From assembly GCA_027000645.1 (NCBI GenBank), contig JALTNO010000339.1, positions 1 to 39,061 on the forward strand: a DNA stretch of 39,061 nt, read 5' to 3'. A model generated the notes under the pieces. It saw only the letters and a program-made list of their open reading frames with translations. It was not told the origin of the DNA and did not search any database. A program made the position numbers and the translations under genes. The DNA comes from Paracoccaceae bacterium (GTDB taxonomy: Bacteria > Pseudomonadota > Alphaproteobacteria > Rhodobacterales > Rhodobacteraceae). This document shows, piece by piece, positions 5,290-15,400 of this stretch; the stretch's first letter is position 1, and each line of letters starts with the position of its first letter.

Positions 5290-5597
5290 GTCTTCGGCCT
5301 CCTTCGCCGGTTTCCATGTGCCGCCCCTCGGCCAAGAGACGACGGTGCGCTCCACAATCACCCCATGGGCACATCCAAACGACACGCGCCCCCATGGGCG
5401 CGACGCGCTGATGGGGGGCGATCCCTGGACGGGCCGGGGACCGGAAGGTGTGACGCTTCCGGGTATCGGCGCCGCAGTTAGAGGGTTTGCCCGCGCGAGT
5501 CAAGCCGGGCGGCGGCGCGCAAGCGCGCCATTGCATGTTCAGGCAAGACCGGCAAGAAATGAACGCAGAGTGGGTTGGCGCACGGGGCGCGGGTCGG
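5290..5597. promoter_or_regulatory. ffh leader and ffh-LysR intergenic region
   Basis: This 308-bp gap between divergent genes holds the predicted ffh promoter (5475-5503, minus) and about 180 bases of leader RNA. Within the leader are a hairpin at 5385-5402 (CGCGCCC arms, CCAT loop) and a weaker one near 5450-5470 (CGGAAG/CTTCCG). No open frame in either direction resembles a known protein. A plus-strand promoter for the LysR gene must also lie here but was not identified. Confidence 0.5.
5475..5503 (-). promoter_or_regulatory. Predicted sigma-70 promoter of ffh
   Basis: On the minus strand TTGACT (5503-5498) is followed after exactly 17 bases by TAACTG (5480-5475), a good match to housekeeping -35 and -10 boxes. 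Transcription would begin near 5468. The -35 box runs into a GACTC site, a CcrM methylation target. Confidence 0.6.
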
Positions 5598-10889: not shown

Positions 10890-11657
10890 TCAGCGGCTTT
10901 TCTCGCGTTCGTATCTTTGTCGCGCGACTTCTTCGTTCTGCATCGCCTTGCGATGGTCGGACAGGGACTGTTCGACGAAACTCAGATGCGCGACCACCGC
11001 TTCGCGGGCGCCTGCGGGGTCGCGCGCCTGAAGTGCGTCGTTGATCCTTCGGTGCTGATCCAGAAGCTCGCTTCGCGTGGTTCGCTGCTTGAACATCATC
11101 GCGCGGTTATAGAACACCCCTTCGCGCAGAAGTTCATACATCGACCGCATCATGTGCAGCATGATGACGTTGTGGCTGGCCTCGATGATGGCAAGGTGGA
11201 AATCGGCATCCAGCCGCGCCTCGTCCGCCGGGTTGCGCTTGGCATGTGCGGCTTCCATCTTGCGATAGACGGTGTCGATGACCTTCAGGTCCGTGTCCGA
11301 GGCCAGCCGCGCGGCGCGTTCGGCGGCCAGCCCCTCCATGTCGCGGCGAAAGGCGATATAGTCGAAGACGGCCTCGTCATGGGTTGCGAAAAGCCGGATC
11401 AGTGCCGGCGAAAACGCGCTGCCCAGAACGTCGGCCACGTAGATCCCCGCCCCCGGCCGCGCGGCGAGAAGCCCGCGTTCCTGCAAGTCGGCCACCGCGT
11501 CCCGAAGTGACGGGCGCGAGACGCCCAGCCGCTCGGACAGTTCGCGTTCGGCGGGCAGGCGCTCTCCAGGGCGCAGGACACCGCGCAGGATCAACAGTTC
11601 GATCTGGCGCACCACCGAGGTGGAAAGCTTTTCCGGCTGGACCTTCCTGAATGGCAT
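10890..11657 (-). CDS. GntR/FadR (FCD) family transcriptional regulator
   Basis: The 255-residue protein has a GntR winged helix (KLSTSVVRQIELLILRGVLRPGERLPAERELSERLGVSRPSLRDAVADLQERGLL, about residues 10-64) and then an all-helical FCD domain, in which DADFHLAIIEASHN and DQHRRINDAL hold the metal/ligand-binding Asp and His residues. This layout is that of PdhR, LldR and GlcC, which sense pyruvate, lactate or glycolate; which ligand applies is unclear. The ATG at 11657 has GGAG about nine bases upstream. No target operon is adjacent. Its upstream DNA holds a candidate small RNA read in the same direction, whose terminator would separate or attenuate the two. Confidence 0.92.
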   Translation of the reverse strand: MPFRKVQPEKLSTSVVRQIELLILRGVLRPGERLPAERELSERLGVSRPSLRDAVADLQERGLLAARPGAGIYVADVLGSAFSPALIRLFATHDEAVFDYIAFRRDMEGLAAERAARLASDTDLKVIDTVYRKMEAAHAKRNPADEARLDADFHLAIIEASHNVIMLHMMRSMYELLREGVFYNRAMMFKQRTTRSELLDQHRRINDALQARDPAGAREAVVAHLSFVEQSLSDHRKAMQNEEVARQRYEREKSR

Positions 11658-11720
11658 CTGTGGACTCCGCTGATTGGTCGGAACATATGACCACGCTCCG
11701 GCAGCCTCAACGGATCGTGG

Positions 11721-11751
11721 AAAAAAAGCGGCCCCGGGAGGGCGGGGCCGC
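11721..11751 (-). terminator. Strong rho-independent terminator of the candidate small RNA
   Basis: On the minus strand GCGGCCCCG (11751-11743) pairs with CGGGGCCGC (11736-11728) in nine uninterrupted pairs around a CCCTCC loop, followed by seven T (11727-11721). No protein gene ends just upstream, so it must end a non-coding transcript or attenuate the regulator gene. Confidence 0.85.
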
Positions 11752-11850
11752 AAGATGGAAGCCACGAGGGATTCCGCAATCCGGGCGACGCGCGCAGAGG
11801 GATAGGCGTTCGCCCCGCTGGATGCGGCCGGACGGGAGGGCCCGGCTCGG
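11721..11850 (-). ncRNA. Candidate small RNA with CCCUCC anti-SD loops
   Basis: A promoter just upstream and a textbook terminator at the end define a minus-strand transcript of about 130 bases that codes for nothing recognisable. Its 5' end can form GCCGG/CCGGC (11846-11842 with 11831-11827) with CCCTCCC exposed in the loop; a middle stem GGATT/AATCC follows; the 3' terminator stem has the loop CCCTCC. Two C/U-rich loops complementary to Shine-Dalgarno sequences are a hallmark of several alphaproteobacterial trans-acting RNAs. The alternative is an attenuated leader of the regulator gene that starts 64 bases further on. Confidence 0.5.
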
Positions 11851-11855
11851 GGTCT

Positions 11856-11884
11856 ATTAATATTCGAAAATCAGAATACGTCAA
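11856..11884 (-). promoter_or_regulatory. Predicted promoter of the candidate small RNA
   Basis: On the minus strand TTGACG (11884-11879) is followed after 16-17 bases by TATTAA/ATTAAT (11862-11856), an AT-rich -10 region that stands out in this GC-rich DNA. The start is predicted near 11850. Confidence 0.6.
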
Positions 11885-11934
11885 GCCCGATTCCGGTAAA
11901 CTGATTGTTAACCCGATGATCCCATGATCCGGGC

Positions 11935-12264
11935 ATGAGATTGCGTTTCGCATGGCTTGCGGCTTTGTCGGTGTTGATGCTGACCGCCTGCAATACACCG
12001 GACCGGCCTTTCCGCGGCCTGACTCCGACGCGGGTCGAGGTGGACGGCAGCGTCTTCGACATCCGTGTGCGGGGCGAGTTTGCCGAGGCCATCCGCGTCA
12101 ACCCGCAATATGCGCCCCGGTTCGAACCGATTCGCTCCCGCGCGGCGGTTGCATTTGCGCAGGTCAGCGGTTGTCGCGTGGTGGGGGTTCTTGGTGACCA
12201 GTCGCAGATGACCGCCAATCTCGATTGCAGCGATGGATCGAAGAGGAAATTGCCTCCTCCCTGA
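11935..12264 (+). CDS. Small predicted lipoprotein
   Basis: The 109-residue product starts MRLRFAWLAALSVLMLTAC, a short positively charged start, a hydrophobic stretch and an LTAC lipobox with the lipidated Cys at position 19. The mature part has about 90 residues, with two further Cys near 80 and 97 that could form a disulfide. It is likely anchored in the inner or outer membrane, facing the periplasm. No family was recognised; similar short lipoproteins are common in Rhodobacteraceae. It lies upstream of smc but is separated by 168 bp containing a promoter. No clear Shine-Dalgarno sequence precedes the ATG. Confidence 0.75.
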   Translation: MRLRFAWLAALSVLMLTACNTPDRPFRGLTPTRVEVDGSVFDIRVRGEFAEAIRVNPQYAPRFEPIRSRAAVAFAQVSGCRVVGVLGDQSQMTANLDCSDGSKRKLPPP

Positions 12265-12327
12265 CCGGGCCGGTGGGGGCGATGTGAAGCCATGCCCCGC
12301 GGAACCGGGCTGGCTGACGCAATATAT

Positions 12328-12336
12328 TGTGGATAA
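12328..12336 (-). promoter_or_regulatory. Perfect DnaA box upstream of smc
   Basis: TGTGGATAA on the plus strand is the exact complement of the consensus DnaA box TTATCCACA. It lies about 95 bp before the smc start codon and 36 bp before the predicted -35 box. Confidence 0.5.
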
Positions 12337-12371
12337 GCATGGCAGAGGTGCCATATACGCCTGCAGACATG

Positions 12372-12407
12372 TTGACTTGGCATGGTTCAAGTCGGAACAT
12401 TCCGACT
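12372..12407 (+). promoter_or_regulatory. smc promoter region with 18-bp inverted repeat
   Basis: TTGACT (12372-12377) is a good -35 box; the matching -10 (AACATT, 12396-12401) is weak. A perfect inverted repeat AGTCGGAA-CA-TTCCGACT (12390-12407) covers the -10 and likely start site, where a bound protein would block transcription. GANTC sites lie at 12404-12408 and 12414-12418, ten bases apart. A smaller inverted repeat ATGGCA/TGCCAT lies at 12339-12354. Confidence 0.45.
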
Positions 12408-12432
12408 CTAGGGGAATCGGGGCGGGCCTGTC

Positions 12433-15400
12433 TTGCGCTTTACCAGACTCAAACTCAACGGCTTCAAGAGCTTCGTCGATCCGACCGATCTGCTGATCGC
12501 CGACGGGCTGACCGGAATCGTCGGGCCCAACGGTTGCGGCAAGTCCAACCTGCTTGAGGCCCTGCGCTGGGTGATGGGGGAAAACCGCCCCACGGCAATG
12601 CGCGGCGGCGGGATGGAGGACGTGATCTTTGCCGGTGCCGCCACCCGGCCCGCGCGCAACTTTGCCGAGGTCAGCCTGCTGATCGACAACAGCGAACGGC
12701 TGGCTCCGGCAGGGTTCAATGATTCGGACATGCTGGAAATCGTCCGGCGGATCACCCGCGACGTGGGCAGCGCCTACAAGGTCAACGGCAAGGATGTGCG
12801 CGCCCGCGACGTGCAGATGCTGTTTGCCGATGCATCCACCGGTGCGCATTCGCCGGCGCTGGTCCGGCAGGGGCAGATCGCGGAACTCATCAACGCCAAG
12901 CCGCGCGCGCGCCGCCGGGTCCTGGAAGAGGCGGCGGGGATCTCGGGACTTTACCAGCGCCGGCACGAGGCCGAACTGAAGCTGAAGGCGACCGAGGCCA
13001 ACCTCCTGCGCGTCGAGGACGTGATCGAACGGCTTGCCCAGCAGCTGGCGCAACTGGCGCGCCAGGCCCGGCAGGCGGCGCGCTATCGCCAGATCGGCGA
13101 GGATCTGCGCCGGGCCGAGGGGATGCTTCTCTATCGCCGGTGGAAAGAGGCCGACGAGGCCCGCGCCGCTGCCGAAGAGGCGTTGCGGGAACGCGCGGTC
13201 GCGGCCGCGCGCGCCGAAACCGCCGCCCGCCGTGCCGGGAAGCTGCGCGCCGAACGCGAAGAGGCGCTGGCGCCGCTGCGCGAGGAAGAGGCAATCGCGG
13301 CGGCCGTTCTGCAACGGCTGCAGGTGCAGCGCGACACCCTGACCGACCAGGAGGCCCGCGCCCGCCAGACTATCGAGGCCCTGCAGGCCCGGATCGAACA
13401 GCTTGGCCGCGACATCGCGCGCGAACAGGGCCTCAGCCGCGACGCCGGCGACACCATCGAGCGGCTGGAATGGGAGGCGCGCGAACTGGCCCGCGCGGGT
13501 GAGGGTCACGACGAAAGGCTGGCCGAGGCCGCCGATCTGGCCCGGCAGGCGGCAGAGGTTCTCAAGGCGCGCGAGGCCCGGCTTTCCGAGGTGACCGAGG
13601 ACGTGGCGCGTCTTGCCGCGCGTCACCAGTCGGTGCAGCGTCTGGTGGCCGACGGTCGCAAGACGCTGGCGCGGTCGGAGGCCGAAGAGGCCCGCGCCCG
13701 CGAGGCCATGGCCGAGGCGAAACGGGCGCTGATCCGCGCGGGCGAGGCCTTCGAGACCGCAAGGCGGGCCGAATCGGATGCAATTGCGGCGGCCGAGGCG
13801 GCCGAGGCGAAGCTGGCCGAAGCCGATGCCGCCCGAACCGACGCCCAGGCGCGCGAGGCCGAGGCCCGCGCCCAGAGGTCCGAGGCCGAGGGCGAGGCCG
13901 GGGCTCTGCGTGCCGAAGTGGCGGCTCTGGCCCGGCTGGTGGCGCGCGAGGCCGCCGAGGGCGGGCAGGTGCTGGATCTTCTTCGGGTCGAGCCGGGCTA
14001 TGAAAAGGCGCTGGGGGCGGCGCTGGCCGATGACCTGCGCGCGCCGCTGGTGGACGCCGAGGGGCCGTCGGGCTGGCTTGCTCTGCCGGGATATGACGCG
14101 GATCAGCCGCTGCCCGAAGGCGTGGTGCCGCTGGCCCGTTACGTGTCAGGGCCCGAGGCACTGGGTCGGCGGGTCGCGCAGATCGGGGTCGTCGATTCCG
14201 ATGCGGCGGCGCGGTTGCAGCCGTTGTTGCGCCCCGGTCAGCGGCTGGTTTCCACCGAGGGTGACTTGTGGCGCTGGGACGGGTTTCGCGCCTGGGCCGA
14301 GGATGCGCCCAGCGCCGCGGCGCTGCGGCTGGAACAGCTCAACCGCCTGGAAGCGCTCAAGCAGGATCTGACCCGGGCCGAGGCGCGGGCCGAGGGCGCG
14401 CGGGCCGCGCATGAGCTGCTCAGCCGTCGTCTGGCCGAGGTGACCGAGGCTGACAAGGCCGCCCGCGAGGCCCGCCGCGATGCCGACCGGCGCCTGGCCG
14501 AGGCTGCGCGCGCACTCAGCCGGGCCGAGGCCGAGCGAAACCTCGCGCAGGGCAGGCTCGAGACGCTGTCTCTGGCGGTTGAACGTCACCGCGAGGACGC
14601 GATGGAGGCCCGCCTGCGGCTGCGCGAGGCCGAGGCTGCATTGGCCGATCTGGGTGATCTGGAGGCGGCGCGGGCCGAGGTCGAGGACATCCGCCAGACG
14701 GTCGAGGCGGCGCGGATCACCATGCTGACCCGGCGTTCGGCGCATGACGAACTGCGCCGCGAGGGCGAGGCCCGCACGCGTCGCGCGCAGGAGGTGGCGA
14801 AAGAGATCAGCGGCTGGCGGCATCGGCTTGACACCGCCGGAAAGCGCATTGCGGAACTGGTCGAGCGCAAGATCGCCCATGAGGAGGAGTTGCGCGAGGC
14901 CAGCGCGGCGCCGGCCGAGATCGCGGCCCGGCGCGACGAGTTGTCGAAGGCCATATCCGAGGCCGAGGCGCGCCGGGCCCGCGCGGCGGATGCTCTGGCC
15001 GCGGCCGAGGCGGCATTGCGCGAGGCGGTCGGCCATGAGCGCGAGGCCGAGCGGCAGGCCTCGGAGGCGCGCGAGGCGCGCGCGCGGGCCGAGGCGCGCG
15101 TTGACGCAGCGCGCGAGGCGGTTCTGCATGCGGCCGAGCGTATCGCCGACGGCCAGCAGGTGACGCCGGAGCAGTTGCTCGATCTGCTGGAGGTGGACCC
15201 TGCGGTGATCCCGCCGGCTGAGGCGCTGGAGGTGGAGGTTAACCGCTACAAGCGGCAGCGCGACGCGTTGGGCGCGGTGAACCTGCGCGCCGAGGAGGAC
15301 GCCCGCGAGGTGCAGGTGGAACATGACGAACTGGTGCGCGAGAAGGCCGATCTCGAGGGGGCGGTGCGCACGCTGCGTTCCGGCATCGCCAGCCTCAACC

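Follow-up and report, generated by a model that had tools for sequence, protein, structure and literature searches.

The window, i.e. the whole stretch of 39,061 nt analyzed here, is contig C339 of the source assembly G000 (3.59 Mb, 469 contigs). Between a gene encoding a GntR/FCD transcription regulator and a small lipoprotein-like gene, it carries the features of a predicted small RNA (Table 1). The FCD domain of the regulator was recognized with an E-value of 1.1e-24, and the nearest NCBIfam models, neither of which reached its cut-off, were PdhR (196 bits) and LldR (178 bits). By the closest named relatives of the regulator protein, the genome was assigned to the family Rhodobacteraceae. 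The lipoprotein-like gene matched no family at cut-off, and "lipoprotein" is the label it received in the initial reading of the sequence. SMC is located behind this gene. At the gathering threshold, the sole Rfam match in the window was the ffh RNA (RF01793) at 5381-5432 on the minus strand (55 bits, cut-off 35).

Table 1. Features around the predicted small RNA (positions in the window)
Feature	Positions	Strand	Remark
GntR/FCD transcription regulator, PdhR/LldR-like	10890..11657	minus	downstream of the small RNA, same strand
FCD gene promoter, TTGAGG-N17-TATGTT (11710-11682)	11675..11710	minus	-10 box inside operator GGTCATATGTTCCGACCA (11692-11675)
Predicted small RNA, ~128 nt	11721..11848	minus	predicted from sequence
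Intrinsic terminator, 9 G-C pairs	11721..11751	minus	loop CCCUCC 11742-11737, T7 tail
Hairpin 2	11783..11815	minus	predicted fold; large loop exposing UCCCUC 11802-11797
Hairpin 1, GCCGGGC-CCTCCC-GTCCGGC, 7 pairs	11827..11846	minus	predicted fold; loop CCUCCC 11839-11834
Sigma-70 type promoter-like site of the predicted small RNA, TTGACG-N17-ATTAAT	11856..11884	minus	-35 TTGACG 11884-11879, 17-nt spacer, -10 ATTAAT 11861-11856
Small lipoprotein-like gene	11935..12264	plus	upstream neighbour, diverges from the small RNA

The earlier note on this DNA had placed a promoter, a transcript of about 130 bases, and a nine-pair terminator with seven T between the two genes, with no protein gene inside. 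All of these were confirmed as sequence features, on the minus strand, the transcript being a predicted one. The promoter-like site, of sigma-70 type in appearance (by eye), was the sole match to the pattern TTGAC-N18-ATTAAT in the window, without mismatch. With up to one mismatch, 0.09 matches would be expected and 8 of 100 shuffles contained the pattern, which had been picked after the site was seen. A sigma-70 consensus scan of positions 11000-12500 listed no promoter; it missed the site because the scan demands an A as the second base of the -10 hexamer, which ATTAAT lacks. By eye, no FCD operator was seen at the promoter-like site of the predicted RNA. The start of the RNA was set at ~8 nt past the -10 box and is uncertain by several bases. 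Within the ~128 nt read, no ATG was present, and frames with GTG or TTG starts traverse the RNA and continue through its terminator. Judged by sequence, the locus has the marks of an orphan trans-acting small RNA, i.e. a promoter and a terminator of its own and no evident protein gene.

Four terminator-like sites were found in a scan of 1.5 kb (1.2 in shuffles), one of them a shorter version of the small-RNA terminator. The latter (GCGGCCCCG-CCCTCC-CGGGGCCGC, then T7) had the most pairs of all. It serves no evident protein gene, because the sole gene before it, viewed along the minus strand, is the lipoprotein-like one, which points the other way. The description of CCCTCCC and CCCTCC as exposed in the loops of the first and last hairpins, complementary to ribosome-binding sites (anti-Shine-Dalgarno, aSD), was borne out in part. 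The loops of hairpin 1 and the terminator had predicted unpaired probabilities of 0.99-1.0, but both comprise six bases, and the seventh C of each CCCTCCC sits in the stem. All three main loop sites reached ensemble unpaired probabilities of 0.97-1.0; for a fourth site, UCCCUC, the values were 0.3-0.66. CCCTCCC occurred five times in the window, below the chance expectation of 11.7, and two of the five copies fall within the small RNA. The fold of the window RNA was unremarkable by itself and barely better than that of shuffles, of which 11 in 200 equalled it (z = -1.64).

At E ≤ 1e-40, the FCD protein had matches in 30 of 61 genomes, the source genome included, and 80 FCD loci among the matches listed formed the comparison set of relatives. 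One genome, G110, was the sole other member of the genus among the family genomes compared, and conservation rests on these two sequences. Its FCD protein is 91% identical to that of the window and is accompanied by a similar cassette, consisting of TTGAAG-N17-ATTAAT, a body of ~134 nt, and GCGGTCCCG-CCCTCC-CGGGGCCGC-TTTT. The gene upstream of this cassette, on the same strand, differs from the neighbour in the window and encodes a semialdehyde dehydrogenase (Pfam; presumably asd). The promoter 29-mers of the two species were identical at 21 positions, a number never reached with 5000 shuffled targets (best 20) or with 5000 shuffled queries (best 18). The spacer was compared alone because any two sigma-70 promoters have hexamer bases in common; 10 of its 17 positions agreed, which was equalled by 80 of 20000 shuffled spacers. 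Among 394 family genomes, only the two of this genus, G000 and G110, contained the terminator 28-mer with up to three mismatches, and a reversed-pattern control gave no match.

The body between promoter and terminator has largely diverged. By eye, hairpin 1 starts with GCCGG and ends with GTCCGGC in both species, and one of its pairs, G-U in the window RNA, is A-U in G110. The G110 RNA folds strongly (z = -4.35, none of 200 shuffles as good) and exposes UCCCUC in the second hairpin (0.84-1.0 unpaired) as well as CCCUCC in the terminator (1.0); its first hairpin has no CCUCC loop. Of the two-loop aSD design put forward in the earlier note, the terminator loop CCCUCC is kept in G110, but the CCUCCC of hairpin 1 is not, and UCCCUC in the middle loop is common to both species instead. 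These six bases could easily agree by chance in a C-rich RNA. Lack of conservation of the loops beside retained flanking genes, which the earlier note had named as speaking against its proposal, was seen at the family level and, by half, within the genus. An ATG-started frame of 172 codons opens in the G110 RNA and passes the terminator into FCD in another frame. We took it as chance, because the window has no such ATG. Beside FCD in G110 (L028, plus strand), two near-identical tandem small ORFs (675-908 and 1176-1394; MLKFINKFRKDENGAVTVDWVVLTAAVVAL...) were also noted, which appear pilin-like by eye; the first gave a Pfam match to DUF4244 below cut-off (20.3 bits).

When 149 family genomes were searched at the DNA level with the small-RNA region, 22 matched at E ≤ 0.01. 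The match in G110 was the one covering the terminator beside FCD. The other matches listed were 22-45 bases long (one of 64 in the source genome itself, L025) and lay mostly in the G+C-rich body. They were taken as chance, not each being inspected, and possibly include a diverged relative.

The lipoprotein-like gene lies directly beside FCD in eight of the other FCD loci compared (L042, L060, L064, L069, L104, L111, L116, and L124). In seven of these, the two genes are 89 to 142 nt apart, the value varying with the choice of start codon. For L042, with its uncertain start codon, the gap is at most ~180 nt, as compared to 277 nt in the window. Near these eight gaps, the best ungapped matches reached 13-17 of 28 positions for the terminator and 11-14 of 29 for the promoter. 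The gap in L042 holds a long inverted repeat (AAAGCGTTTCGGCATATTG ... CAATATGCCGAAACGCTTT). In G110 the cassette accompanies FCD and not the lipoprotein-like gene, which was not found in that genome, an empty search result that shows nothing by itself. The small-RNA gene appears to be young, because its terminator is confined to 2 of 394 genomes and the eight loci with the same neighbour have shorter gaps without it. In the simplest history suggested by the two genomes, the cassette would have arisen beside FCD in an ancestor of the genus.

Since G110 retains promoter and terminator beside the same regulator although its upstream gene differs, a stand-alone RNA gene is likely, which agrees with the separate transcription unit proposed in the earlier note. 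We regard a real, separate small-RNA gene, with transcription predicted from promoter and terminator, as highly probable. RNA polymerase would start at TTGACG-N17-ATTAAT on the minus strand and produce a structured RNA of ~128 nt, with termination at the U7 tract ahead of the promoter that belongs to the regulator itself. Such an RNA would most likely act in trans, its unpaired CCUCCC, UCCCUC, and CCCUCC loops pairing with GGAGG/GGGAG-type ribosome-binding sites and occluding these sites in its targets.

According to the earlier note, the RNA could repress many mRNAs. For possible targets, a rough gene set of 100 greedy ATG ORFs of at least 150 aa was compiled from 179 kb, 91 of which had enough upstream sequence. 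At positions -20 to -3, GGAGG preceded 11 of the 91 gene starts, and GGGAGG and GGAGGG two each, with none in the control stretch for any of the three. The shorter GGAG was present at 21 starts (control, 3), and the full complement GGGAGGG at none of the 91 (control, 0). A set of possible targets therefore exists among the sampled genes. If the gene is real, trans action through aSD loops is as likely as not or slightly more likely. The best reading as a whole, a genus-restricted orphan small RNA that would act in trans through its aSD loops, we consider to be about as likely as not.

The earlier note had itself offered an alternative, an attenuator for the regulator gene. In this case, the RNA would be an attenuated leader of FCD, the promoter being that of the regulator, with conditional read-through of the terminator. 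The arrangement is suggestive: small RNA and regulator share a strand, the end of the T-run is 63 nt from the FCD start codon, and GCGGGGC could pair with GCCCCGC of the 5′ arm of the terminator. A precedent exists in the same family. UpsM, a small RNA derived from the 5′ leader of the dcw cluster in Rhodobacteraceae, likewise consists of a promoter, an RNA, and a strong terminator before a same-strand gene, and read-through into mraZ of R. sphaeroides was estimated at one in 100 (accessible part of PMC5089854). That part of the paper reports no separate start site for mraZ. In contrast, the gene downstream of the window RNA, at a different locus, has a promoter-like site of its own.

This site argues against attenuation. 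The regulator promoters of G000 (TTGAGG-17-TATGTT) and G110 (TTGTGA-17-TATGTT) both lie downstream of the small-RNA terminator. In 75 of 81 loci, FCD was preceded by an operator resembling GGTCA-N7-TGACCA (GGTCATATnnTTTGACCA type; at least 8 of 11 positions), and all 11 positions were matched in 54 of the 81, a count made without a chance control. In 43 of the 75 loci, a TTG box was found 16-18 bases before a -10 box inside the operator (exactly 17 in 35), as compared to a control mean of 3.9; the six of 81 sites scoring below 8/11 were dropped for this count, and L117 was omitted from the survey due to its short upstream sequence. The regulator therefore probably has its own, autoregulated promoter, and the overlap of operator and -10 box makes such autoregulation probable across the family. 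Moreover, the antiterminator was no better than chance in either species: of 500 shuffles each, 139 equalled the window antiterminator in paired arm bases and 489 equalled or exceeded it in energy gain, the respective numbers for G110 being 417 and 203. The RNA contains no ATG, and no Rfam riboswitch was found at cut-off. Attenuation thus described is improbable, and less likely than a stand-alone RNA gene.

Alternatively, a real small RNA might work in another mode, i.e. by seeds in its diverged 5′ part, by protein binding (Hfq or CcaF1-like), or as a sponge, in which case the CCUCC loops would simply follow from loops being rich in C where the genome is rich in G+C. The absence of the hairpin 1 CCUCCC from G110 fits such a view, and a fully unpaired CCTCC was produced by 203 of 1000 shuffles of a 100-nt RNA body. 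The terminator loop points in the other direction, as its CCCUCC is kept in both species and a CCTCC loop is rarer among terminators than unpaired CCTCC is in RNA bodies. Such a loop was carried by one of the 14 terminators found in 179 kb of source-genome sequence and by one of seven in 108 kb of G110, in both cases the small-RNA terminator itself (the samples include the locus), and by none of 133 in 528 kb of relatives' FCD loci (80 loci among the matches listed). Conservation of this loop alone is not decisive, because the stem is kept too, and the terminator may persist merely as insulation of the regulator. We consider another mode of action to be a minor possibility.

Least probable is that no functional RNA is made and that a promoter-like stretch merely precedes a terminator insulating the regulator from read-through. 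A poorly conserved RNA body and the weak fold of the window RNA would be expected in this case, a terminator-like hairpin ends 55-74 nt before FCD in ~31 of 80 relatives' loci (among the matches listed), and in several of the 30 FCD loci viewed by eye (L054 and L055 were not orientable) such a hairpin follows a same-strand upstream gene; however, the window has no preceding gene on the minus strand, the upstream gene in G110 is already followed by a hairpin of its own with TTTT (by eye), and the promoter match between the species surpassed every control of both kinds.

We thus return to the small RNA acting through aSD loops, and to its likeness to known RNAs. Hairpin loops with aSD motifs and fast-changing stems are an established alphaproteobacterial design (accessible parts of PMC10746234 and PMC3927594). 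According to the former, the same CCUCCUCCC recurs in three hairpins of ar14 RNAs, NfeR1 silences ntrB via these motifs by pairing at the translation initiation region, and AbcR1 and AbcR2 are said to bear aSD motifs resembling those of NfeR1. For RS0680a, an RNA of R. sphaeroides, the accessible part of the latter describes two stem-loops that both contain a motif of this type. CcsR comprises four RNAs cotranscribed with the gene of the DUF1127 protein CcaF1 (PMC10253847, accessible part). A search of the openly accessible literature, which was not locus-specific, gave no title that refers to an RNA from here.

The Rfam covariance search suggested in the earlier note assigned the window RNA to no family above cut-off. 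Ten weak matches were obtained at E ≤ 10. The best of these, ncS54 (23.6 bits, E = 0.0018, cut-off 43), lay mainly over the terminator and was rejected, as were atoC (21.4 bits, cut-off 50), suhB/mmgR (16.7, cut-off 41), and ar7 (9.7, cut-off 60). Four weak matches of the G110 RNA were rejected as well, none being common to the window RNA. Neither CcsR1 nor ar14 was among the ten matches, and none was named for AbcR, which is set apart here by name only.

Like CcsR/cuckoo (RF02791 CcsR1, Rhodobacter), the window RNA presents C-rich aSD sequence in hairpin loops. It differs in its motifs, as CcsR has the nine-base CCUCCUCCC (Rfam title) in place of CCUCCC, UCCCUC, and CCCUCC, and also in being single copy, with shorter loops, its own promoter, and no adjoining DUF1127 gene; in G000, DUF1127 was matched on contigs C136 and C242 and not on that of the window. 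A further mark of CcsR/cuckoo is an RpoHI/RpoHII promoter; the promoter-like site of the window has, by eye, a sigma-70-type look. A CcsR/cuckoo-like locus of the genus was observed separately (L179 1485-1908 on contig C242 of G000; L187 1045-1446, minus strand, on contig C35 of G110), in which a DUF1127 gene is followed by tandem CTCCTCCC / CCTCCTCCC hairpins. The CcsR1 model scored 51.5 bits in G000 (E = 1e-10) and 49.5 in G110, and these copies escape the curated Rfam threshold because their scores fall below it (65.3). The ar14 model gave 59.2 bits in G110, above its cut-off of 58.8, and 47.5 in G000, below it. As in the window RNA, the last hairpin of both loci is terminator-like, with a CCTCC loop and a T run at its foot; the two loci lie outside the terminator-loop samples given above. 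The ar14/NfeR1 RNAs of rhizobia (RF02344) resemble the window RNA in exposing aSD sequence in several hairpins, but repeat one motif identically in three of them, whereas the window RNA has three shorter, non-identical motifs.

On sequence grounds, the window RNA is thus not a member of the CcsR/cuckoo or ar14 families, although by analogy its mode of action may be like theirs. Convergent evolution of the aSD design, by which a genus-born small RNA would have gained its loops independently, including a terminator-loop seed, alongside the CcsR RNAs of its cell and perhaps with common targets, appears unlikely on present evidence. If the RNA is transcribed, it would represent a datable birth of a small-RNA gene, whose body has changed fast while the promoter and the terminator at its two ends were kept, and would allow a test of whether C-rich aSD loops arise repeatedly in alphaproteobacteria. 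The overlap in targets between the newcomer and the CcsR RNAs could be tested as well. It may plausibly be regarded as a further example of a type of bacterial regulator already known, and does not constitute a new kind.
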